A DNA stretch of 64,000 bases from the NCBI GenBank assembly GCA_903857865.1, contig CAIOGO010000016.1, positions 1-64,000 on the forward strand. Reading direction: 5' to 3'. The notes under the pieces were generated by a model. That model was not told the origin of the DNA, ran no database searches, and saw only the letters and a program-made list of their open reading frames with translations. This document shows positions 2-63,524 of this stretch, in pieces; position 1 is the stretch's first letter, and each line of letters opens with the position of its first letter. Position numbers and translations under genes: made by a program. Source of the stretch: an uncultured bacterium (lineage in GTDB: Bacteria > Bipolaricaulota > Bipolaricaulia > UBA7950 > UBA9294).

Positions 2-3000
2 CGGAACGAAGACGACATTGACGTCGTCTTTGGTGGCGATGGCAACGACACGATTAGGGTCTACGGCGGCGGTGAGATGAAGATTGGCACCCAGAACCCG
101 TTCAAGCTGCGTTTGGGCAACCTGGTCTTCGGGGGCGCAGACCAGGATGACATCACGGCGCTTGACGGCATTGATGTCATCTTCGGCGGCGACGGCAACG
201 ACACCGTCAGGGCCGGGGAGGGGTATCTGCTGGACATTGACCAGGAGTTCTCTATTAACCTGGGCGACTTCATCTTTGGTCAAGGCGGAGACGACATCCT
301 GCACGGCGACACCGAGAACCCGCCGTCAGGCGTCGACGAGGACGGCATTGACCTGATCTTCGGCGGTCCGGACGACGATTCCGTGTACGGGGGAACGGGC
401 GGGACCATCACGGTTGAGGACGCGGACTTCTGCCTGGTCTTCGGGAACCTCTTGTTCGGCGGCCCCGGCGATGACCATCTTCGCGGTGACTACCAGAACT
501 GGGACAGCAACAACCCCAAAGACGGCATCGACTTGATCTTCGGGGGCAAGGGCAACGACACGATCGAGGGTGCCGGCGGCTCGCTGATCGTCATCGGAGA
601 TATCACATCGGGCAAAGCGGTGATCATCTGGTTTGGGAACCTGCTCTTCGGCGGCCCTGACAACGACAGCATCTACGGCGCCGACAAGGCCGGAGCCTGT
701 GCTGGCAGTTCTGAGCTCAAAACATTGCTCGACAAGCTTGAGATCTCGGACCTTGGCGGGGCGGCGGACTTGATCTTCGCTGGCGCCGGCGATGACTTCG
801 TGGAAGCGTATGACGGCATCGACTTCATCTTCGGCAGCTCCGGGAGGGATACCCTCCAGGCCAAAGACGGCGGGTTCCTCATTGTGCCAATAGAGGGCAT
901 ACCGGCGCCCATCGCCTTTGGCAACCTCATCTTCGGCGGTGATGGTGAAGATGCAATCAAGAGCGAAGGGCACATCGTGCCACTACTGGAGATTGACCTG
1001 CTCTTTGGCAACGAGTGCGACGACCAGATCGAAGCTGGCGATGGGTTGAACATCGTCTTCGGCAATAGAGGGAATGACACAATCACCGCGGGCAATGGGG
1101 TGAACCTGCTCTTCGGCAACGAGTGCGACGATCAGATCGAAGCTGGCGATGGGTTGAACATCGTCTTCGGCAATAGAGACGATGACACAATCACCGCGGT
1201 CAATGGGGTGAACGTGCTCTTCGGCAATCGCGGAAGGGACGCTATCACAGGAGGCGACGGCCTGACGATCGCCTTCGGGAACCAGGATGATGACAAAGTC
1301 CATGCTGGCAATGGCGCGGCGGTACTCTTCGGCAACTCCGGCGCAGACGATGTCAAGAGCGGGGCTGGTCTAGGCCTCGCCTTTGGCAACAGAGGTCCGG
1401 ACATCGTTGCGGCCGGCAGTGGCCTGGCAGTGCTCTTCGGCAACGCAGATGATGATGAGGTCAAATGCGCCAACGGACTGTGCGTAGCCTTCGGGAACCA
1501 AGGTAACGATGTGGTTAGCGCCGGGAACTGGGTGAACGTGCTGTTTGGGAACAGTGACGACGACCAGCTCGTCTCCGGCGGCGGCCTCAGCTTGCTGTTC
1601 GGCAATGCAGGGAGTGATGTCCTCCAGGCGAGTGCGGGTGTTCTGTTCGCCTTCGGCAACGCTGGCAATGACGTGATCGTCGGCGGGAACGACCTGAACA
1701 TCGGCTTCGGGAACCAGGGAGCCGATCAGTTCTTCGGTGGTGGAGGGACCAACATCTTCGCAGGCAACAGCGACAACGACCAGATCCGCGGTGGTGCTAG
1801 TGGCGATTATCTCTTCGGTAATGGTGAAGACGACACGATTGTCGGTGACGCTGGCAAGGACTGGATCTTCGGCAATCGTGGCGAGGACACGCTCGGGAGC
1901 GGTCCGGGTGTCGATTTCCTCTTCGGCAACCGCGGTAAGGATACAGTCTGTTCGGAGGACGACGGCGAGAACGACTGGCTTTTTGGTAACCGGGGTGATG
2001 ACACTCTTTGCAGGTGCCAGGATCCTGGCGATAAGGCCTTCGGCGGCCGCGGCAACGACACCAAGAAGAAAGACTGTGCTTGGGTAACGCTCACGGATCC
2101 CAGCCGCGGTGAGGTTCGTGGCCGGGTGCTGATCGACCTTGACGGGGACGGCATCGGCGATGTAGGTCATGCTGGTGTCACCGTCGCCGTTAGTTCGTAC
2201 GGCAGCGTACTGAGCGTACTGACTGATGCAGACGGCTGGTATCGTATTGACGGCTTGAGCGCGGGCTCTTATGCGGTCTCTGAGACCCTGCCCACAGGAT
2301 TCGTCTCGGTGACTACTTCTATCGGTTTCCAAATCACTAACGGCTACGACTTTCATCGGATTGACTTTGTCAACCGCCGGTTCCCAGGGATCTGCGGGAC
2401 CAAGTTCCACGACCTCAACGGCAACGGCAAGCAGGATCCTGGTGAACCTGGGCTTTCGGGCTGGACCATCACCGTCACCGCCCTCAATGGCAACCCCAAG
2501 GGAAGTGCTGTGACCGATGTAGATGGGCATTACTGCGTGCCCCTCTCTCCGGGGGTCTACATTGTGACGGAGACGCCGCAGCCCAACTGGACCGCTACGA
2601 CTCCGACTTCGGTAACAGTCAACCTTCTGCCCGAGAGTGAGTGTGCTGTGACTATCACCGGCGCCGAAGTCAATTTCGGCAACCGCGCAGATACCGCAGA
2701 GGGTGAGATCTGCATCGTCAAGTTCCACGACCTCAACGGCAACGGCCAGCAGGATGCTGGTGAACCTGGGCTTTCGGGCTGGATCTTCGTCGTCCCCAGC
2801 ATCGGCCAAGTGACCACTGGGCTGGATGGCCGGGTGTGCGTGAAGGTCGCCTGGGGGACCTACACCATCACCGAGCAGGTGCAATCCGGCTGGGCGCCCA
2901 CGACGCCGAACCCACAGACAGTGACTGTTGGTCCGGGCCAGATTGTCGACCTCTTCTTCGGTAACAAGTGCCAATGTGTCAACCCTCCATTGGGCATGGT

Positions 3001-4444
3001 GAGCTGGTGGCCGTTGGATGAGACCTCGGGGGTGACCGCCCACGACATTCTGGGCGGCTTCGATGGAACGACGTGGCCGGGACCCATTGGGGCAGTGAAT
3101 GGCGGCGGTCCAGCGACATCTGCCCTCTGGCCGTCTAGTTTCAAGTTCGCACCGGGGGTAGTAGGCAACTCCTTGTTCTTCGACATCGGCCAGTACGTGA
3201 AGGTGCCGCATGCCACAGCACTTGATCCGGGCACGGGCGACTTCACAGTCGATGCCTGGGTGATCTACGCGGAATCCGGGTTTGGTCCGCGAAGCTTCAC
3301 GATTGTGAAGAAGGGGAACTCCTCTCTTCCCGGAACGCCGTGGTGGCACTTCTACATCCGAGACTTGAGCCCTAACTATCCGACGGGGAAACTCGTATTC
3401 GAGGTGGGTTCACCATCAGGCTCTATAGTCGCCCCCGCGGTGACCATAGCACCCGCCCCGGCGAACGGACACGGATGGCATCACGTTGCCGCCACATTCA
3501 AGAGGGGAGCGCCTGACACGATCGTTCTCTACGTAGATGGTGTAGCGACAACCTTCTCCTTCATCGCCGGTACCATTGCCCCCAGCATTGCGAGCACGGG
3601 GGACTTGTACATTGCCGGCGGGACGCAGATCCAAACGATTGCCATCGACGAAGTGGAGATCTTCCACTACGCCCTGTCCTCGGCAGACGTTCACGACATC
3701 TTCGCTGCCGGCTCGTCTGGCAAGTGCAAGCCCGACCTCGGCGATGCCCCCGATGGCACAAACCACTGGGGTTTCCCCATGCTGGCCTGCTCTTGCACCG
3801 CGAAGGCGCACTTCCCCACGGTCTATGATCCAGGGCTGCCGGGGAATGCGCCGCTGGGGCCGATCCATTGGAGTCCTAGGGGTCTTGCTTGGCTCGGTGC
3901 GAACGTTAGCGGCGAGGGCGAAGCCGACACTGGCTGGGATCAAGACGGGTTCAACAACATCCAACCGAGTTTTGGCATCAGCGACAAAGATGGTTGCGAT
4001 GATGGAGTGGCAGCTGTGCCCTTGTCGAGTACCTTGTCATGTGGGGCGGGCACGGTCAACTTCAGCGCCACCAACCCCGGGAGTACCCAGGTGCAGGTAT
4101 ACATCAATGTCTGGTTTGACTGGAACTGCGATGGCGATTGGGATGATACGATCCAGTGCTTCGATCTTGCCGGGGTCACTGATGTCTGGGAGTGGGCGGT
4201 TCGGAACTGCCTCGTCACCTTGAACCCTGGCCTCAATGCCAAGGTGACACCGGGTTTCCTGTTCATGACGCCCCAACCTGGTCAGATGGTGTGGATGCGC
4301 ATCACGCTCACCGACGTCCCCGTGAGCGCCGCGGGCAATGGCGGGCCATTCACGAGTCCGCTCGATCAGGGCAAGGGCGGCAGCGGCCCCGTCGGCGGCT
4401 ACCAGTACGGAGAGACGGAGGACTACGAACTGGGGCCGTACTAG
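2..4444 (+). CDS. Giant RTX-repeat / SdrB / LamG / GEVED surface protein (5' partial)
   Basis: The reading frame is open from the left edge of the window, so the N-terminus and any signal peptide are outside. Nucleotides 2 to about 2090 encode glycine- and aspartate-rich RTX-type calcium-binding repeats: first irregular units containing LIFGG-GNDTI motifs, then from about 1000 a regular 18-residue unit (FGN-x-GNDTI-x-AGNG type, two nonapeptides). Three SdrD/Cna-B-like beta domains follow (about 2100-2975), two with the FHDLNGNG-QQDAGEPGLSGW signature, then a LamG/concanavalin-like domain (about 2995-3720, start SWWPLDE) and a GEVED domain (about 3730-4441, ending GETEDYE). The family context is secreted or surface adhesive proteins binding calcium and glycans. 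No LPXTG or transmembrane anchor is visible at the C-terminus, so export and anchoring route is unknown. No neighbouring type I secretion genes are in view. Confidence 0.9.
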   Translation, partial: RNEDDIDVVFGGDGNDTIRVYGGGEMKIGTQNPFKLRLGNLVFGGADQDDITALDGIDVIFGGDGNDTVRAGEGYLLDIDQEFSINLGDFIFGQGGDDILHGDTENPPSGVDEDGIDLIFGGPDDDSVYGGTGGTITVEDADFCLVFGNLLFGGPGDDHLRGDYQNWDSNNPKDGIDLIFGGKGNDTIEGAGGSLIVIGDITSGKAVIIWFGNLLFGGPDNDSIYGADKAGACAGSSELKTLLDKLEISDLGGAADLIFAGAGDDFVEAYDGIDFIFGSSGRDTLQAKDGGFLIVPIEGIPAPIAFGNLIFGGDGEDAIKSEGHIVPLLEIDLLFGNECDDQIEAGDGLNIVFGNRGNDTITAGNGVNLLFGNECDDQIEAGDGLNIVFGNRDDDTITAVNGVNVLFGNRGRDAITGGDGLTIAFGNQDDDKVHAGNGAAVLFGNSGADDVKSGAGLGLAFGNRGPDIVAAGSGLAVLFGNADDDEVKCANGLCVAFGNQGNDVVSAGNWVNVLFGNSDDDQLVSGGGLSLLFGNAGSDVLQASAGVLFAFGNAGNDVIVGGNDLNIGFGNQGADQFFGGGGTNIFAGNSDNDQIRGGASGDYLFGNGEDDTIVGDAGKDWIFGNRGEDTLGSGPGVDFLFGNRGKDTVCSEDDGENDWLFGNRGDDTLCRCQDPGDKAFGGRGNDTKKKDCAWVTLTDPSRGEVRGRVLIDLDGDGIGDVGHAGVTVAVSSYGSVLSVLTDADGWYRIDGLSAGSYAVSETLPTGFVSVTTSIGFQITNGYDFHRIDFVNRRFPGICGTKFHDLNGNGKQDPGEPGLSGWTITVTALNGNPKGSAVTDVDGHYCVPLSPGVYIVTETPQPNWTATTPTSVTVNLLPESECAVTITGAEVNFGNRADTAEGEICIVKFHDLNGNGQQDAGEPGLSGWIFVVPSIGQVTTGLDGRVCVKVAWGTYTITEQVQSGWAPTTPNPQTVTVGPGQIVDLFFGNKCQCVNPPLGMVSWWPLDETSGVTAHDILGGFDGTTWPGPIGAVNGGGPATSALWPSSFKFAPGVVGNSLFFDIGQYVKVPHATALDPGTGDFTVDAWVIYAESGFGPRSFTIVKKGNSSLPGTPWWHFYIRDLSPNYPTGKLVFEVGSPSGSIVAPAVTIAPAPANGHGWHHVAATFKRGAPDTIVLYVDGVATTFSFIAGTIAPSIASTGDLYIAGGTQIQTIAIDEVEIFHYALSSADVHDIFAAGSSGKCKPDLGDAPDGTNHWGFPMLACSCTAKAHFPTVYDPGLPGNAPLGPIHWSPRGLAWLGANVSGEGEADTGWDQDGFNNIQPSFGISDKDGCDDGVAAVPLSSTLSCGAGTVNFSATNPGSTQVQVYINVWFDWNCDGDWDDTIQCFDLAGVTDVWEWAVRNCLVTLNPGLNAKVTPGFLFMTPQPGQMVWMRITLTDVPVSAAGNGGPFTSPLDQGKGGSGPVGGYQYGETEDYELGPY
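1001..1216 (+). repeat. Near-identical 108-bp tandem duplication inside the RTX array
   Basis: Positions 1001-1108 and 1109-1216 are almost identical copies, each encoding two 18-residue RTX units (one with FGNECDDQIEAGDG, one with FGNR-DDTITA). Neighbouring units have diverged much more, so this is the youngest expansion in the array. The copies differ at a handful of bases, for example GGGAAT against GACGAT. Confidence 0.85.
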
Positions 4445-4868
4445 CAGGCAAATCCGGATGCGCCCGTTGGGAACTGCATCGAGACTCGACGTCGCGGATG
4501 AGAATGACGGAACGCAGAGACGTCCGATCTAGCCAGAGGAGCGGAATTGCTCGCAATCCGACAACGTGGTGTGGCGAGAGCCATGGCGGCAGAGGCGGGG
4601 CAATGGACGTCGCGCCAGGATCCCGACGCGGAGCCGATCGGTACAGTACTGGCTGACCAACTCCACGCTAGTAGGCAGCAGCTCCCAGAGGAATCTGTTA
4701 GTTCCGGCCAGCGCACCGAGACGCCGAGCACTTCGAGCTCCTGCGTTTCTGCGTCCTCAGTTCGCGGCGAAGGTGGGTGCGGTCAGTCCGTCACGTACAC
4801 GGTCAGATTGAAGGCCGCACGACGCCGCGGTATCTTGGCACTCTGGCTCGATCAGAAAGGTGGCATCG
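4445..4868. other. Intergenic gap with nitroreductase promoter
   Basis: No convincing gene is seen in these 424 bp. Short open frames here have no recognisable domain. The right end holds a good sigma-70-type promoter for the next gene, annotated separately. Confidence 0.6.
4808..4836 (+). promoter_or_regulatory. Predicted promoter of the nitroreductase gene
   Basis: TTGAAG at 4808-4813 and TATCTT at 4831-4836 are separated by 17 bp, and the start codon lies 32 bp further on behind an AGAAAGGTGG ribosome site. Confidence 0.5.
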
Positions 4869-5639
4869 ATGAATGAGACTCTGCGGACGATCCACTCTCT
4901 GCGAACGATTCACGGCGACTTCTCGGAACGGGAAGTCAGCGACGCCGACCTGACCCAGATTCTCGAGGCGAGTGTCCGCGCGGCGAACGCCTCGGGCCGG
5001 CAGAGCTACTCAATCATCGTTCTCGACGATCGGGCGAAGATGAAGGACCTCTTCTCCTACCAGGGCAGCCGAGCGCTCATCTACTGCGTCGACTTCACCC
5101 GCATCATGGCCCTGGCTCGGCATCTTGGGCACGAGTTCGACAACGATCACATCATCGGGTTCATCACCGGAACGATGGACACGATGCTCGCGGCCCAGAC
5201 GGCCGTCATCGCCGCGAAGTCGCTGGGGATCGACTCTATGGTCACGAACGGCCTGCATCGAAACAGCCTCGACAAGGTCTACGAAGCCCTGAAGCTGCCG
5301 CCCACGTCGTGCTTCCCTCTCGCCACCGTTGTTCTCGGATATCCGCGCCAGGAACCGCCGTACCAGAAGGGTCGCCTCGACTTGGACGCCGTCGTTCACT
5401 TCGGCGAGTACCACCGACCGACAGGAGCGCAGCTCGACCGAGTCGTGGCTCAGTACGACGACGTCTCCAGGCACATCGGCCTCATCCCAAACTGGCAAGA
5501 GCAGGGGTTCCGGCACTACCTCGACTGGTTCTACACCAAGTGGACCGGCAAGCCCGCGACCGACCGAGTCGCCACGGGGAAGGTGCTCGAGTTCCAGGAG
5601 CGGCTTGCGAAGAGCGGATTCTGGTGGCCGGAGGCGTGA
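4869..5639 (+). CDS. Nitroreductase family protein
   Basis: 256-residue FMN-dependent nitroreductase-fold protein, expected to reduce nitro or related substrates with NAD(P)H in the cytoplasm. The N-terminal part has the family layout: a helix ending in the DADLTQILEA region, then ANASGRQSY, which matches the family's FMN-phosphate-binding segment (usually P-S-x-x-N/R-x-Q-x-W). The usual N-terminal RRSxRxF motif is replaced by SLRTIHGDF next to a short self-repeat (TIHSLRTIH). The ATG at 4869 is chosen over an in-frame GTG at 4860 because AGAAAGGTGG lies 7 bp upstream of the ATG. The stop codon abuts the truncated end of an integrase remnant, and a decayed copy of this gene's 3' end recurs at 9341-9586. 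Confidence 0.85.
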   Translation: MNETLRTIHSLRTIHGDFSEREVSDADLTQILEASVRAANASGRQSYSIIVLDDRAKMKDLFSYQGSRALIYCVDFTRIMALARHLGHEFDNDHIIGFITGTMDTMLAAQTAVIAAKSLGIDSMVTNGLHRNSLDKVYEALKLPPTSCFPLATVVLGYPRQEPPYQKGRLDLDAVVHFGEYHRPTGAQLDRVVAQYDDVSRHIGLIPNWQEQGFRHYLDWFYTKWTGKPATDRVATGKVLEFQERLAKSGFWWPEA

Positions 5640-6165
5640 TCTCAGAGGCAGCATCGTGACACGACCTCTGTTCCCATTCCCGGATCGAACAACGATCTGC
5701 GCGCGCTCCAGGTCTGCATCCATGACGCGCAGAGTGCAACACTCGATCAACCGGAGTCCGGACGCGTAGGAGGCGTGTTATGAGGCCGAGCATGCTGTCG
5801 GGTTCCGTGGCGGCAAGGACTCTCCGAGCCTCGTCTTGCGATAGAACGGTGGGAACTCCGATTGGACGCTTCGCTCGAACGGCGCCGAATTCGTCGATTC
5901 CGTTCTTGACGACACCCCGAAACAGACAGATGAGGTCAGTGAGGGCTTGGTTCTGCGTGGACGCTGAGATGTGGCGACCTGTAGCCAAGTGTGGGTGAAA
6001 CCACTCAACATGATTTACTGACATCTCTGGCAGATGAAGCCACTACCCCGGCGCATCGCGATGGAATCGGGGGAATCGGTCAATCCACCGCGCATAGGAT
6101 TCCTCCGTCCGCGGGGAGTAATGCTTGGTGGTGCATGCAGCGCGAAGTTGATCAAGGAGCCTCAT
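5640..6165 (-). pseudogene. Broken integron-type tyrosine recombinase (integrase), truncated
   Basis: Read on the minus strand from ATG at 6165, the product begins MRLLDQLRAACTTKHYSPRT and continues through SASTQNQALTDLICLFRGVV and RAKRPIGVPTVLSQDEARRV, which match the N-terminal SAM-like domain and linker of IntI-type and related integrases. An in-frame TAG at 6043-6045 interrupts it after codon 40, and a frameshift near 5752 moves it to the frame encoding LRVMDADLERAQIVVRSGNG and GRVTMLP. Similarity ends at about 5640, exactly beside the nitroreductase stop codon, so the catalytic boxes with H-x-x-R and the nucleophile tyrosine are missing. A minus-strand TTGACA (6200-6195) could have been its -35. 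It cannot be an active recombinase. Confidence 0.82.
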
Positions 6166-6176
6166 GACTGTAGGAT
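6148..6176 (+). promoter_or_regulatory. Pc-like outward promoter inside the integrase 5' end
   Basis: TTGATC at 6148-6153 and TAGGAT at 6171-6176 are 17 bp apart on the plus strand. The site lies in and just upstream of the 5' end of the minus-strand integrase remnant and points at the cassette-like genes, the position of the cassette promoter Pc in integrons. TAGGAT is also the -10 of three other promoters I find in this window. Confidence 0.5.
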
Positions 6177-6238
6177 GGCACGCCAAGGTAGCAATGTCAA
6201 TATGAGAGGATAGGAGAGACGGAAAGTCTGATGAGGGT

Positions 6239-6302
6239 GGCCAACCAGGCGGAGTGCACTCCGCCGCTAGTGTGCACCGTTGCACGCTGATCATGGTTAG
6301 CC
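6239..6302 (+). other. Candidate attI or attC recombination site with GTTAGCC core
   Basis: GGCCAAC (6239-6245) and GTTAGCC (6296-6302) form imperfect inverted ends 64 bp apart. They enclose the perfect 18-bp palindrome GGCGGAGTGCACTCCGCC at 6248-6265. The GTTAGCC core is identical to that of the site at 7005-7067, so the two cores bracket the HNH gene as integron cassette boundaries would. Confidence 0.45.
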
Positions 6303-6323
6303 CGACAAGGGACTGATCCGAGG

Positions 6324-7010
6324 ATGCAGAAGAAGGCGTTCGAACTCTCACGAGTCTCCGGTCAGCCGGTGTCCGATGCCGAACTGCTCGGCGATCTGCG
6401 TCGCGTGGCGACCAGCCTCGGGAAGACCACCGTTGGCCAGAAGGAGTACCGGCGCATCGGACGCTACGACGATTCGACGACCACGCGCCGCTTCGGATCG
6501 TGGAATCGGGCCTTGAAGGCTGCTGGACTGAGCGTCTCAAACGTGGTCGACCTCGGAGACGAGGAAATGTTCGAGAACATCCTCGCACTCTGGCAACACT
6601 ACGGACGCCAGCCGCGGCGGCGCGAGCTCGCGCTTCCACCCTCGCGAATCTCGCAATCACCGTACCTGAGACGGTTTCGGTCATGGACTGCGGCGCTTGA
6701 GGGCTTCGTGGCACATGCAAACGCCAAGGACTATGGGAACGCTCCGATGAACGGGGTCTCATCGGCACCCGAGGATGCCCGCCGGACATCCCGCGACCCA
6801 TCTCTTCGCCTTCGATTCCAGGTTCTTCAGAGGGACCGGTTCGCGTGCCGCTCGTGCGGTGCGAGTCCGGCGGCGAAGGCAGGGATCGAACTCCACGTTG
6901 ACCACGTGACGCCTTGGAGCAAGGGTGGTGAAACGATCCTCGAGAATCTCCAGACCCTCTGCAGCAAGTGCAATCTCGGGAAAGGTGCTCATGGCCACGG
7001 GGCGGGCTAA
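6324..7010 (+). CDS. HNH endonuclease with homing-endonuclease-associated repeats
   Basis: 228 residues. The first 140 or so contain two repeats of the homing endonuclease-associated type (each with a SxxTYxRRFGSWNxALxxAG-like core; here TTTRRFGSWNRALKAAG and SPYLRRFRSWTAALEG), thought to be DNA-contacting. The C-terminal part is a complete HNH domain: CRSC zinc knuckle, HVDHVTPWSKGG, the N of ENLQTLC and the CSKC knuckle. It should be a DNA-nicking or cutting nuclease. The stop codon TAA forms part of the GGCTAAC arm of an attC-like site, a typical cassette arrangement. AAGGGA 11 bp upstream is the likely ribosome site. HNH proteins of this build are known from mobile elements; the target here is unknown. 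Confidence 0.85.
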   Translation: MQKKAFELSRVSGQPVSDAELLGDLRRVATSLGKTTVGQKEYRRIGRYDDSTTTRRFGSWNRALKAAGLSVSNVVDLGDEEMFENILALWQHYGRQPRRRELALPPSRISQSPYLRRFRSWTAALEGFVAHANAKDYGNAPMNGVSSAPEDARRTSRDPSLRLRFQVLQRDRFACRSCGASPAAKAGIELHVDHVTPWSKGGETILENLQTLCSKCNLGKGAHGHGAG

Positions 7011-7067
7011 CAACCGGTTGCAGCGGCCGGTCGCTGCGCGGCCCGCCACTGAACCGGAACGTTAGCC
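7005..7067 (+). other. attC-like site (cassette recombination site)
   Basis: 63-bp imperfect hairpin bounded by the exact inverted pair GGCTAAC (7005-7011) and GTTAGCC (7061-7067). Inside are a second pair, CCGGTT (7014-7019) with AACCGG (7052-7057), and a GC-rich central stem around CGCTGCGCGGC. This two-box layout (R'', L'', L', R'), the length and the position between a stop codon and the next gene are those of integron attC sites. Confidence 0.65.
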
Positions 7068-7083
7068 ACACTAGGAGAACAGC

Positions 7084-7680
7084 ATGGACCCGAAGGTGAG
7101 ACAGTCGTGGGAGGAGTTTCTGAATCCTGAGGTCACTCGTCCCCGTCTGATCGCCGCATCCATCTACATCGCTGGCTTCGAAGCCCTCAAGGACTCCGTC
7201 GTGGGCCGCATTCGTGACTTCTTCTGGAGTGGCTTCGATGAGTCCGGCGACAAGATCGATCCCGAGTACCAATCCGATGTTCTCGCTCGGAACAGGAGCC
7301 CTGTCTATGCCAGTCTCGAATGGCTGAAGGAGATGCACGCGATCGATGGCAGCGACCTGGCCGCATTCGATCGCGTAAAGGCTTGCCGCAACACTCTGGC
7401 ACACAAGCTGTTCTCCACGCTGGGCTCAGAAGGATTGCCGCCCGACTTCGAGCAGTGCTTCAACGAGATGATCGCGCTGCTCCGCAAGATCGAGGTGTGG
7501 TGGATCACCAACGTTGAGATCCCAGCTAACCCCGACTACGCCGGCAGTGAGATCGATGAAGATGGAATCGTTCCGGGTCCGATCATGGTCATGCAGCTTC
7601 TCTTGAACGTCGCCCTCGGGGACGATGGGCGAAGCAAGACCTACTATGATGAGTTTCGCAAGGGCACCGGAGGTGGCTAG
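7084..7680 (+). CDS. Hypothetical cassette-type protein
   Basis: 198 residues, acidic and soluble, no signal peptide or membrane segment. The start at 7084 follows AGGAGAA by 6 bp. I do not recognise a named domain with certainty. A central RVKACRNTLAHKLFS segment resembles the R-x-x-R-N-x-x-A-H pattern of HEPN-like or MAE_28990-like proteins, in which such residues can form an RNase site, but that is a weak inference. It sits between two attC-like sites, 17 bp after the first, and its TAG stop overlaps the second, so it looks like a single-gene cassette without its own promoter. Confidence 0.7.
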   Translation: MDPKVRQSWEEFLNPEVTRPRLIAASIYIAGFEALKDSVVGRIRDFFWSGFDESGDKIDPEYQSDVLARNRSPVYASLEWLKEMHAIDGSDLAAFDRVKACRNTLAHKLFSTLGSEGLPPDFEQCFNEMIALLRKIEVWWITNVEIPANPDYAGSEIDEDGIVPGPIMVMQLLLNVALGDDGRSKTYYDEFRKGTGGG

Positions 7681-7734
7681 CAGCGGCTTGCAGCGGACGG
7701 CGCTGCGCGCTGCCGCTGGTGCTGGGCGTTCGGC
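7675..7734 (+). other. attC-like site, degenerate
   Basis: 60-bp GC-rich hairpin region directly after the previous stop codon. GCAGCGG and CCGCTGGTGC pair around a GC-rich centre, and the right core is GTTCGGC (7728-7734). The left outer arm (GGCTAGC) no longer pairs well with the right core, so the site is either diverged or spurious. Confidence 0.45.
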
Positions 7735-7750
7735 CGACAGGAGTCTTCGC

Positions 7751-8527
7751 ATGACGCGCGTTGAGGAAATCAGAGCCGTAGCTGAACAGAACCGTGCGGT
7801 CTTTGAGAAGACGATTCCCCAATTGGCCGAGACTCTACAGCAATTGATCGGGTACGCCGACGAAATCGGAGAGGCCATCTCGGTTGGCAAGCAGAAGGAT
7901 GGCAAGACCCAGGTCAGTTTCATTCCGATGGTTCTCGTCGCCCAACGCCAAGCGCTTGCAGCCTACGAGTTCTTCTCCTCCTGTCGTCCCTATCAAGGGT
8001 GGCTTCTCTTCCGCCCGGGTATCGAAGCGGTGCTCATCGCCGGGAAATGGTTCGACGATCCTGCGATGTTCCGACTCTGGAAGGAACGACGGGTCAGGTC
8101 GACGGAGTACATGGAGAAGTACTCCGGCAAGCATCTCCGGTCCAGGTCACTGCCGAACTCAGAGCGTTTGCAGGCCGTTCTTCGACGGATCAATGACGAC
8201 TACCCACACTTCAACAATGACTACTGGAATCGTCACTTGTCCCTCCGACCCCAGGACCCGAACGCCTTCCTGCTCAGGCTCGAGTACTTCGATGACGGTT
8301 GGCTCTCGGAAGCTCATGCTCTCGCCTTCTTGCACCTGCTGGCGGTCCTCTTCGATTCCTTCGCGGCGATGTTCGCCAAGGGCCTCGTTGGCTTCGAGGT
8401 CCCTCCGCGCACTGACGCGATCACCGAGCTGCTTGACCCGAGGATACGGAGGTTGGCTCAGCAATTCCCTGATGCGAGGCTCGTGCTCCACGACATCGGA
8501 TTGTGGGACACTGCAAACGTGGCGTGA
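7751..8527 (+). CDS. Hypothetical protein, cassette-type
   Basis: 258 residues. The ATG at 7751 is preferred over an in-frame upstream start at 7625, which would overlap the previous gene, because AGGAG lies 7 bp before it and directly follows the attC-like hairpin. The protein is soluble, rich in aromatic residues (YEFFSSC, YQGWLLFRPG, KWFDDPAMF) and largely helical. The segment RPGIEAVLIAGKWF resembles the helical core of DUF5677-like proteins, but I would not name it. It belongs to the plus-strand run that starts at the integrase remnant. Confidence 0.7.
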   Translation: MTRVEEIRAVAEQNRAVFEKTIPQLAETLQQLIGYADEIGEAISVGKQKDGKTQVSFIPMVLVAQRQALAAYEFFSSCRPYQGWLLFRPGIEAVLIAGKWFDDPAMFRLWKERRVRSTEYMEKYSGKHLRSRSLPNSERLQAVLRRINDDYPHFNNDYWNRHLSLRPQDPNAFLLRLEYFDDGWLSEAHALAFLHLLAVLFDSFAAMFAKGLVGFEVPPRTDAITELLDPRIRRLAQQFPDARLVLHDIGLWDTANVA

Positions 8528-8827
8528 GCGCCAGCGGCTTCAAGGGAAGCGGCCGAACCAACAGATGAACCTAACAACCCCCTGCCGTCTCGGGTTCTGC
8601 AGGCTTCGCCACCGGCTGTGGTGGGTTCACATCCAACGAGACGGGGTCTGGTCTTGCACCAACGCAGCTCTCGCGGCACCGTGCTTGTCGCTGCCATTGC
8701 ACGGGCGTCGAGCGAGCGTTCGCGGCGGTAGAGTCCTTCACGGGCTGTCTCTTGATCGCGCCGAGAGGAGAAGCGCTGAGACTCACGCGAGACGCCGCAC
8801 ACCTATCATCGCGCAATGAGGTGAGCG
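8528..8827. other. Intergenic region, possible decayed cassette junction
   Basis: 300 bp with no credible gene. GCCGAAC at 8552-8558 is the reverse complement of the GTTCGGC core seen at 7728, and AACAGATGAACCTAACAAC follows, but no well-paired partner core is found. A GGTAGAGT element (-10-like TAGAGT, 8729-8734) may serve the next gene. Confidence 0.4.
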
Positions 8828-9316
8828 ATGAGCAAGGTCCAGGTGAGGATGCGACCACTCGCGGAGAGGGACGTCGAGGAAATCGTCGAGTTGTCGTTGC
8901 TCGCGTGGGAGCCGGTCTTCGAGTCGTTCCAGAACGTCCTGGGCCCGCGCGTCTTCCCGATCCTCTATCCGGACTGGCGGAAGAGCCAAGCTGAGGGTGT
9001 CGAAGGCGCCTGCAGGGCGACCGACAAGTACCACACGTTGGTTGCCGAGCTCGACGGCCGTGTTGTTGGGTTCATCGCCTACGACCTGAAGGGCGAGACG
9101 GGCGAGGTCGTCTTGCTTGCCGTGCATCCGGAGTTCCAGAAGCGCGGCATCGCGACACAGCTCAATCAGGCGGCACTCGATGCGATGAAGGCGGCGGGGA
9201 TGAAGATGGCGGTGGCTGAGACGGGCGGCGAAGAAGGTCACGCTCCCGCTCGACGCGCATACGAGAAGGCCGGGTACACGGGCCTTCCACTCGTTCGCTA
9301 CTTCAAGGATCTCTAG
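8828..9316 (+). CDS. GNAT family N-acetyltransferase
   Basis: 162-residue single-domain GNAT. The acetyl-CoA binding motif A is clear: VVLLAVHPEFQKRGIATQLN (V-x-P-x-x-Q-x-x-G-I/L-A pattern), followed by LDAMKAAGMKMAVAETGG and the C-terminal ARRAYEKAGY typical of motif B. It should transfer an acetyl group to a small-molecule or protein amine; the substrate cannot be read from sequence. The start has GAGGTGAG upstream. It is the last intact gene before the nitroreductase fragment and may be the final cassette, although no clear recombination site follows it. Confidence 0.85.
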   Translation: MSKVQVRMRPLAERDVEEIVELSLLAWEPVFESFQNVLGPRVFPILYPDWRKSQAEGVEGACRATDKYHTLVAELDGRVVGFIAYDLKGETGEVVLLAVHPEFQKRGIATQLNQAALDAMKAAGMKMAVAETGGEEGHAPARRAYEKAGYTGLPLVRYFKDL

Positions 9317-9340
9317 CCTCGCCGTAAGACAGGACCCTTC

Positions 9341-9586
9341 ACCACAGAACGCGGAGAGTACCATCTCCCCACGAACGCACAGCTGGGCCGGCTCGTGGCC
9401 GAGTACGATGACCCGTCGAGGCAGATCGGCCTCATCGCCAACTGGGAAGAGTAGGGCTTCCGGCACTACCTAGACTGGTTCTACACCAAATGGACGGGCA
9501 AGCCCGCGACAGAGCGAGTCGCTACAGGGAAGGTGCTCGAGTTTCAGGAATGACTAGCAAAGAGCGGGTTGTGGATGCGGGCGCTC
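9341..9586 (+). pseudogene. Decayed 3' fragment of a second nitroreductase copy
   Basis: In one frame this reads as the C-terminal 75 or so residues of the intact nitroreductase at 4869-5639: GEYHLPTNAQL, YDDPSRQIGLIANWEE, GFRHYLDWFYTKWTGKPAT and VATGKVLEFQE. It carries in-frame stops TAG at 9452-9454 and TGA at 9551-9553 and lacks the N-terminal two thirds. It lies on the same strand as the intact gene, so the two form a direct repeat flanking the integrase remnant and its cassettes. Confidence 0.88.
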
Positions 9587-61752: not shown

Positions 61753-62184
61753 TTGAACATCGAAGTTTTGCGGGAGATCGTTCGGCTCCTCAAGGACGAG
61801 AACCTGAGCGAGATCACGGTCTCGGATGGGGAGTCGACGCTCACAGTGCGGCAAGCCGTCGGCCGCGGCGCGGATGCCGCGGGTGCGGGAGCCGGTTCCC
61901 AGCAGGCGCCAGCCGCGGCGCCGACGCCTGAGGCGGTGCACGACGGCCTGGCACTCACCGCGCCGCTCGTGGGGACGTTCTACCGCCGACCGACTCCCGA
62001 GGACGCTCCGTTCGTCGAACCCGGACAGGTCGTGAACCCGGGCGACACAGTCTGCCTCATCGAGGCGATGAAGGTCATGAACGAGATCAAGGCGGAGTTC
62101 GCCGGCCGGCTGCGGACCGTTATGGCGGAAGAGGGCGCGCCCGTGGAGTACGGCCAAGTGCTCTTCGTTTTCGACCCTCTATGA
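61753..62184 (+). CDS. accB: Acetyl-CoA carboxylase biotin carboxyl carrier protein
   Basis: 143 residues from TTG 61753, fixed by a perfect AAGGAGG 7 bp upstream. The N-terminal helix NIEVLREIVRLLKDENLSEI is typical AccB, followed by an Ala/Pro-rich linker (AAGAGAGSQQAPAAAPTPEA) and the biotinyl domain with LIEAMKVMNEI, where the lysine is biotinylated. Carries carboxybiotin from AccC to the carboxyltransferase in fatty acid synthesis. Stop overlaps accC (ATGA). Confidence 0.95.
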   Translation: MNIEVLREIVRLLKDENLSEITVSDGESTLTVRQAVGRGADAAGAGAGSQQAPAAAPTPEAVHDGLALTAPLVGTFYRRPTPEDAPFVEPGQVVNPGDTVCLIEAMKVMNEIKAEFAGRLRTVMAEEGAPVEYGQVLFVFDPL

Positions 62185-63524
62185 GCTTCGACACCGTTCT
62201 TGTGGCGAACCGCGGGGAGATCGCGTTGCGCATCATCGAGGCGTGCCGCGAGCTCGGGTTGCGGTCGATTGCCGTCTACTCCGAGGCCGACGAGGCGATG
62301 CCGTACCTGCAACTCGCCGACGGCGCCGTGTGCATCGGACCGGCCGAGGCATCGAAGAGCTACCTCAATCCGGCGGCGATCATCAGCGTCGCGGAGCTCG
62401 TCGAGGCCGGTGCCATTCACCCCGGGTACGGATTCCTGTCGGAGAGCCCGCACTTCGTCGAGATTTGCGAAGAGCATGGCATTCGCTTCATCGGTCCGAC
62501 CAAAGAGTCGATGCGCATCGTCGGCGACAAGACCGTGGCGCGAGAGTGCGTGGCGCAGGCTGGCGTGCCCGTGCTTCCCGGCGGCGTGGCACCCAAGAAG
62601 CCGGACGACGTCGTGGCGATGGCCGAGCAGATCGGGTACCCCGTGCTCGTCAAGTCCGTGTTCGGCGGCGGCGGGAGAGGCTTGCGGTGGGCGGAGAACG
62701 CCGACGACATCCTGGCCGCTCTCGCAAGCGCGCCGGCCGAGGCGAAGGCGGCGAGCGGCGAAGCCGGCCTGTACCTCGAGAAGGCCGTGCCGAACCCGCG
62801 CCACGTCGAAGTGCAGATCCTGGCCGACGACCGCGGGCGAGCGGTCGCTCTTGGAGAGAGGGATTGCTCCATCCAGCGTCGCCACCAGAAGCTGATCGAG
62901 GAGAGCCCGGCGCCGCGGCTCGACGCGGGGCTGCGGGCGCGCCTGCACCGTGCCGCCCTCGCCTCGGTGCACGCCGTCAACTACTCCAACGCGGGCACGG
63001 TCGAGTTCGTCGTCTCGGCGGAAGGCGAGTTCTACTTCATCGAGATGAACGCGCGCATCCAGGTGGAGCACTCCGTCACCGAGGTCGCCTGCCGTTTGAA
63101 CCTGGTCAAAGAGCAGATCCGGATCGCGGCCGGGGCGACGATTCCGCTCGAGTTCGAGGCGCTCCAGCCCCGCGGGCACACTATCGAGTGTCGCCTGAAC
63201 GCGGAGGACCCGTCGCGCGGGTTCCTGCCGTCCACCGGCACGGTCCACATCGAGGAGCTCCCCGGAGGGAACGGGATCCGACTCGACACCGCTCTCTACG
63301 ACGGGATGGTCGTGACTCCGCACTACGACTCTCTGCTCGCCAAGCTGATCGCCTGGGGGGAGGATCGCGAGGAGGCGCGCGCCAAGATGGAGACGGCGTT
63401 GCGCCGATTCCGTGTGTCGGGCGTCGCCACGACGCGCGACCTCGCGCTGCGCATCGTCGCCCACCCTGCGTTTCGCGACGCCGACCTCTCGACGACGTTC
63501 CTCGAACGCCACGGCTTGGCTTGA
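62181..63524 (+). CDS. accC: Acetyl-CoA carboxylase biotin carboxylase
   Basis: 447 residues, standard for AccC. The N-terminal domain VLVANRGEIALRII, the ATP-grasp glycine loop KSVFGGGGRGLRWA, CSIQRRHQKLIEESPAP, EMNARIQVEHSVTE with the metal-binding glutamates, and GHTIECRLNAEDP are all intact. Carboxylates biotin on AccB using ATP and bicarbonate. Start overlaps the accB stop. Confidence 0.97.
   Translation: MSFDTVLVANRGEIALRIIEACRELGLRSIAVYSEADEAMPYLQLADGAVCIGPAEASKSYLNPAAIISVAELVEAGAIHPGYGFLSESPHFVEICEEHGIRFIGPTKESMRIVGDKTVARECVAQAGVPVLPGGVAPKKPDDVVAMAEQIGYPVLVKSVFGGGGRGLRWAENADDILAALASAPAEAKAASGEAGLYLEKAVPNPRHVEVQILADDRGRAVALGERDCSIQRRHQKLIEESPAPRLDAGLRARLHRAALASVHAVNYSNAGTVEFVVSAEGEFYFIEMNARIQVEHSVTEVACRLNLVKEQIRIAAGATIPLEFEALQPRGHTIECRLNAEDPSRGFLPSTGTVHIEELPGGNGIRLDTALYDGMVVTPHYDSLLAKLIAWGEDREEARAKMETALRRFRVSGVATTRDLALRIVAHPAFRDADLSTTFLERHGLA

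Follow-up and report, generated by a model that had tools for sequence, protein, structure and literature searches.

Integrons with a damaged integrase gene have been described before. In a survey published in 2008 by Nemergut et al., who dealt with them as "pseudo-integrons", nearly one third of the intI genes were pseudogenes (PMC2426708). Clusters of attC sites without integrase are also routinely catalogued (PMC9024848). Since intI pseudogenes are common, the locus which we present here is of a known kind. Like the pseudo-integrons (PMC2426708) it has a stop codon, a frameshift and a deletion in intI, beside an attI site and a cassette array. It differs from them by its lineage and by the way in which the catalytic half of the integrase was lost, through fusion to the end of a nitroreductase gene. 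The locus also has the features of a CALIN, namely at least two attC sites, here on the same strand, and no functional intI nearby; it will probably be filed as such by software which requires a full-length IntI. Unlike a CALIN, it has an integrase relic and an attI site which are still recognisable: its origin by decay is visible, not assumed.

The closest locus we have found is a fragment (L152) of genome G065, from the same class but another family. The two intI relics are 60% identical over their first 62 residues, the attI site is conserved, the first cassette of L152 has complementary ends (9/9) and its attC is 79% identical to the first attC of our locus. However the cassettes are different and so are the lesions in intI, which indicates that the two integrases have decayed independently.

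We consider it very probable that the locus is a decayed chromosomal integron with the classical divergent layout, whose array of three cassettes is now fixed. It is of modest interest, which it owes to the lineage and to the legibility of each part. What is mildly new is the lineage: among the 100 genomes compared, at least six have a relic of intI and two an intact gene. A decayed integron is documented in a group sampled almost only by draft genomes. The successive steps of the decay can be followed, since the relic, the attI and the array can still be made out, and the lineage offers a usable natural series for studying how often integrases vanish after cassette capture.

Genome and comparison set

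The window, i.e. the whole stretch of 64,000 nucleotides analysed, is the first 64 kb of contig C16 (68,080 bases). It belongs to a draft genome of 2.24 Mb in 22 contigs, 91.1% complete. A biotin-carboxylase-like protein encoded in the window (62181–63524) is 82% identical to its counterpart in a sister species; because of this identity in a housekeeping protein we take the contig as a true member of the bin and not a binning error. For comparison we used 100 genomes of the phylum, all within one class.

The integrase relic

5643–6165, minus strand: intI relic; TIGR02249 83.9 + 38.5 bits; residues 1–120 and 126–167 of the 315-position model

The relic is found in two pieces. The first one (model positions 1–120) matches the integron integrase family TIGR02249 with 83.9 bits (1.3e-23), against 21.3 bits (1.4e-4) for XerC. 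The second one (positions 126–167) gives 38.5 bits (8.6e-10), against 21.7 bits for XerC. Both pieces rank TIGR02249 above XerC and XerD, and the best family of the relic is neither Xer nor phage integrase. The curated cut-off of TIGR02249 is 265 bits for the full protein; the relic, with residues 1–167 left, scores below it. The preliminary description had proposed an IntI-type origin, to be checked by such a comparison of profiles, and the scores bear it out: by its family matches the relic is classed as an integron integrase, neither Xer nor phage.

The lesions are apparent in the reading frames. These confirm a minus-strand remnant with a nonsense codon at 6043–6045, as had been reported: it is a TAG, read from 6045 to 6043. 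A frameshift, which had been placed near 5752, does exist, but the frames switch at about 5764–5777, where the two frame matches meet. The C-terminal half has been deleted, and the relic breaks off where the nitroreductase gene ends: homology stops at 5643–5646, beside the nitroreductase stop codon at 5637–5639 (PF00881, opposite direction). The catalytic boxes had all been described as absent. This is right for box II (HxxR), the IntI patch and the tyrosine; however the box-I region (YASGLRLIECCTLRV), including its arginine, is kept in the second frame. With TAG, frameshift and a missing C-terminal half, the locus has no intact catalytic intI and is not a complete, functional integron. When the intact IntI of G012, a species of the same family, served as tblastn query against the window, it matched the two relic stretches and nothing else.

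We detected no intact intI in the 2.24-Mb, 91%-complete genome, where the other matches are gapped at the position of the IntI patch. When a collection of genome contigs was scanned with the relic alone as query there was no match, while a query alignment of the relic and two relatives gave 567 loci.

The attC sites

The attC sites were searched with a covariance model (CM R1) built from 17 attC of integrons in other organisms, including Pseudomonas, cyanobacteria, Chloroflexi, Actinomycetota and others, with no sequence from the window. The R and L stems of this alignment covary (0.308, against 0.155 in shuffles, none of 500 being as high). Two sites in the same orientation were found, and a third one is incomplete:

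7005–7067, plus strand: attC1, of cassette 1; CM R1 50.0 bits, E 2.7e-12
7675–7734, plus strand: attC2, of cassette 2; CM R1 31.9 bits, E 4.4e-7 in the window and 1.5e-5 genome-wide

The plus-strand genes had been described as separated by hairpin sites, and an attC covariance test had been proposed for 7005–7067; attC1 is the strong match obtained there, and attC2 separates the next pair of genes. The bottom strand of attC1 folds well (z -4.7). In attC2 the boxes are degenerate (R' GGCTAGC, R'' GTTCGGC), the R boxes no longer match each other and the folding of the bottom strand is no better than in shuffles (z -0.6). Because of its degenerate R boxes, attC2 is missed by a simple R-box/L-box scan, which finds attC1; the covariance model detects both. 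In attC3 only the left end (R'), at 8550–8558, can be recognised; the right half cannot, and the covariance search found no attC match beyond 8527. Rfam at gathering thresholds gave no match in the window. The next-best covariance match in the 2.24 Mb has 19.6 bits and no core letters; the genome-wide matches at or below this score were rejected as attC, as they lack intact AAC/GTT cores.

The array had been called frozen. This is its likely state, since the proposed search for an intact intI found none in the genome. An array still mobile is an unlikely alternative: an intact IntI would have to act on it from elsewhere in the cell, encoded on missing contigs or on a plasmid, or else arrive occasionally. 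The genome is 91% complete, two species of the same family do have an intact IntI and attC1 is in perfect order, all of which leave some room for it. On the other hand no intact intI was detected in 2.24 Mb, and the damage in the cores of attC2 and in attC3 is what one expects of unused sites.

The cassettes and their genes

In a cassette inserted by IntI, the first bases can pair with the left end of the attC of the same cassette. The three cassettes and their genes are the following:

6296–7060, plus strand: cassette 1; 5' core GTTAGCCCG at 6296, 9/9 complementary to 7003–7011
6324–7010, plus strand: gene of cassette 1; HNH endonuclease, 228 aa, two HNH_repeat units
7061–7727, plus strand: cassette 2; 5' core GTTAGCCAC at 7061, 8/9 complementary to 7673–7681
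7084–7680, plus strand: gene of cassette 2; 198 aa, no named family
7728–8558, plus strand: cassette 3; 5' core GTTCGGCCG at 7728, 9/9 complementary to 8550–8558
7751–8527, plus strand: gene of cassette 3; open reading frame, 258 aa, no family match

The chance of such complementarity is 0.0005 per test for cassettes 1 and 3, and 0.014 for cassette 2. Each 5' core thus pairs with the R' end of its own attC in 9/9, 8/9 and 9/9 positions. The boundaries which had been proposed, 6296, 7061 and 7728, fall exactly on the G of the GTT cores and are backed by the complementary ends. The end of the array had been set slightly short, at 8527. The left end of attC3 sits at 8550–8558 with its right half unrecognisable, and a position near 8.56 kb is the more probable end. 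Gene 3 also belongs to a cassette, one which has lost the right half of its attC, as indicated by the nine-base match and its position. A fourth cassette, with a GNAT gene, was also sought, but its ends are complementary in no more than 7/9 positions.

That there are two cassettes only, the third gene being chromosomal DNA past the last attC, agrees with the failure of the covariance model to match any attC after 8527. We judge this a little less probable still than a mobile array: a 9/9 complementary core lies at 8550–8558, 23 bases past the stop codon of gene 3, where chance would give it with a probability of about 0.0005. We therefore retain three cassettes.

Gene 1 has the domains PF18780 (2.5e-25) and PF01844 (8.3e-13) and two homing-endonuclease-associated repeats. 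No relative was found at E 1e-20 among the 100 genomes of the class. A 36% identical relative is present in a Geobacter MAG (L060), where it is a cassette with 9/9 ends, two flanking attC and an adjoining intact intI.

The protein of gene 2 has no match in Pfam or NCBIfam. In Salinivibrio kushneri (L157) a protein 42% identical to it is also encoded by a cassette with 9/9 ends, preceded by a weak attC match (14.8 bits). Both proteins have an RNxLxH motif, which suggests that the gene 2 product is HEPN-like. A structure predicted from the lone sequence of gene 2 was poor (pLDDT 49.5) and was set aside. For gene 3 nothing was found above the cut-off in Pfam, NCBIfam and PADLOC, nor any plasmid relative.

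The attI site and the search for a promoter

6204–6301, plus strand: attI region, from the intI start to the first cassette; crossover G|TTAGCC at 6296/6297

The window at 6020–6204 matches L152 (2037–2221) with 75% DNA identity, and at 6266–6300 it matches L152 (2285–2319) with 80%; the similarity ends after the GTTAG core. Different first cassettes joined at the crossover to one conserved site are the hallmark of an attI. We place the crossover at 6296 because the homology to L152 breaks off there while the first cassettes differ: the site is conserved up to G|TTAG and divergent beyond.

The attI region also has two strong hairpins at 6239–6302 (GGCGGAGTGCACTCCGCC and GTGCACCGTTGCAC), with imperfect inverted ends and z about -3 on both strands. 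The first hairpin is absent from L152. This stretch was considered as an attC and rejected: it reaches 8.5–9.5 bits despite its strong folding, and the conserved attI forms its 3' part.

A Pc-like promoter had been claimed upstream of the cassettes. The claim finds no support, as there are no sigma-70-like sites in 5600–9400, against 0.6 expected in shuffles; the promoter rules of this lineage may differ. The array may be expressed.

An array built by an integrase had been suggested at the outset, and the attC sites, the cassette ends, the attI and the identity of the relic all support it. A relic of a Xer or phage integrase beside unrelated genes, with hairpins due to chance, could appeal to the partial state of the relic and to its N-terminal SAM-like domains, which are common to many tyrosine recombinases, but it is refuted by the family scores (83.9 bits for the integron integrase, 21.3 for XerC), by an attC with E 2.7e-12 and by the complementary cassette ends and the conserved attI.

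The decayed integron would then have the following history. IntI would have joined incoming circular cassettes, through their folded single-strand attC, to attI at 6296, and an array of at least three would have been built, with genes for an HNH endonuclease, a putative HEPN-like protein and a protein without known family. Later a nonsense codon and a frameshift would have disabled the integrase, together with a deletion which removed its catalytic half and fused the relic to the end of the nitroreductase gene. After this loss the attC sites would be free to drift, with damage in the cores of attC2 and loss of the right half of attC3. We infer this order of events, as we do the present immobility of the array.

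A direct repeat surrounds the integron: the nitroreductase tail at 5402–5631 is found again at 9352–9581, in direct orientation and with 80% identity. The integron sits between the two copies, and the second one has two stop codons.

Integrons in the lineage

Among the 100 genomes, intI above the family cut-off was found only in G012 and G026, where it is intact. Broken relics are present in at least six genomes (this one, G030, G037, G052, G055 and G065), and all of them except that of G052 have attC nearby. In the family, 13 of the 33 genomes have attC sites. Some C-terminal TIGR02249 matches in G025, G048, G051 and G030:C107 were not counted as relics; by eye they are Xer-like or other integrases. 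Bipolaricaulota is absent from the list of integron-bearing phyla in a 2021 review (PMC8618304), and a search of freely accessible literature found no paper linking this phylum with integrons. It is conceivable, although we put it forward only tentatively, that across the whole phylum-level lineage intI has been lost repeatedly while cassettes and attC persist; integrons would then be mainly a one-off source of genes, with selection against the integrase.

Other loci of the comparison have variable features. In G037 (L153), around 4400–4640, the relic passes directly from residues 1–67 to GVRSPVDAL, a short C-terminal end, and seems to have undergone an internal deletion. G030:C79 (L022) has a relic of similar appearance. 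Two layouts coexist in the lineage: intI and attC are on the same strand in L023, L028, L060, L153 and L155, and divergent in the window, L024 and L152. A 7.5-kb contig from a species of the same family (L156, G004:C1) has about ten attC on one strand and no intI; it is a CALIN. At 77–4444 the window encodes a 1455-residue protein; RTX-like repeats (FGNxGxDxI) make up most of it, and additional domains follow at its C-terminal end.
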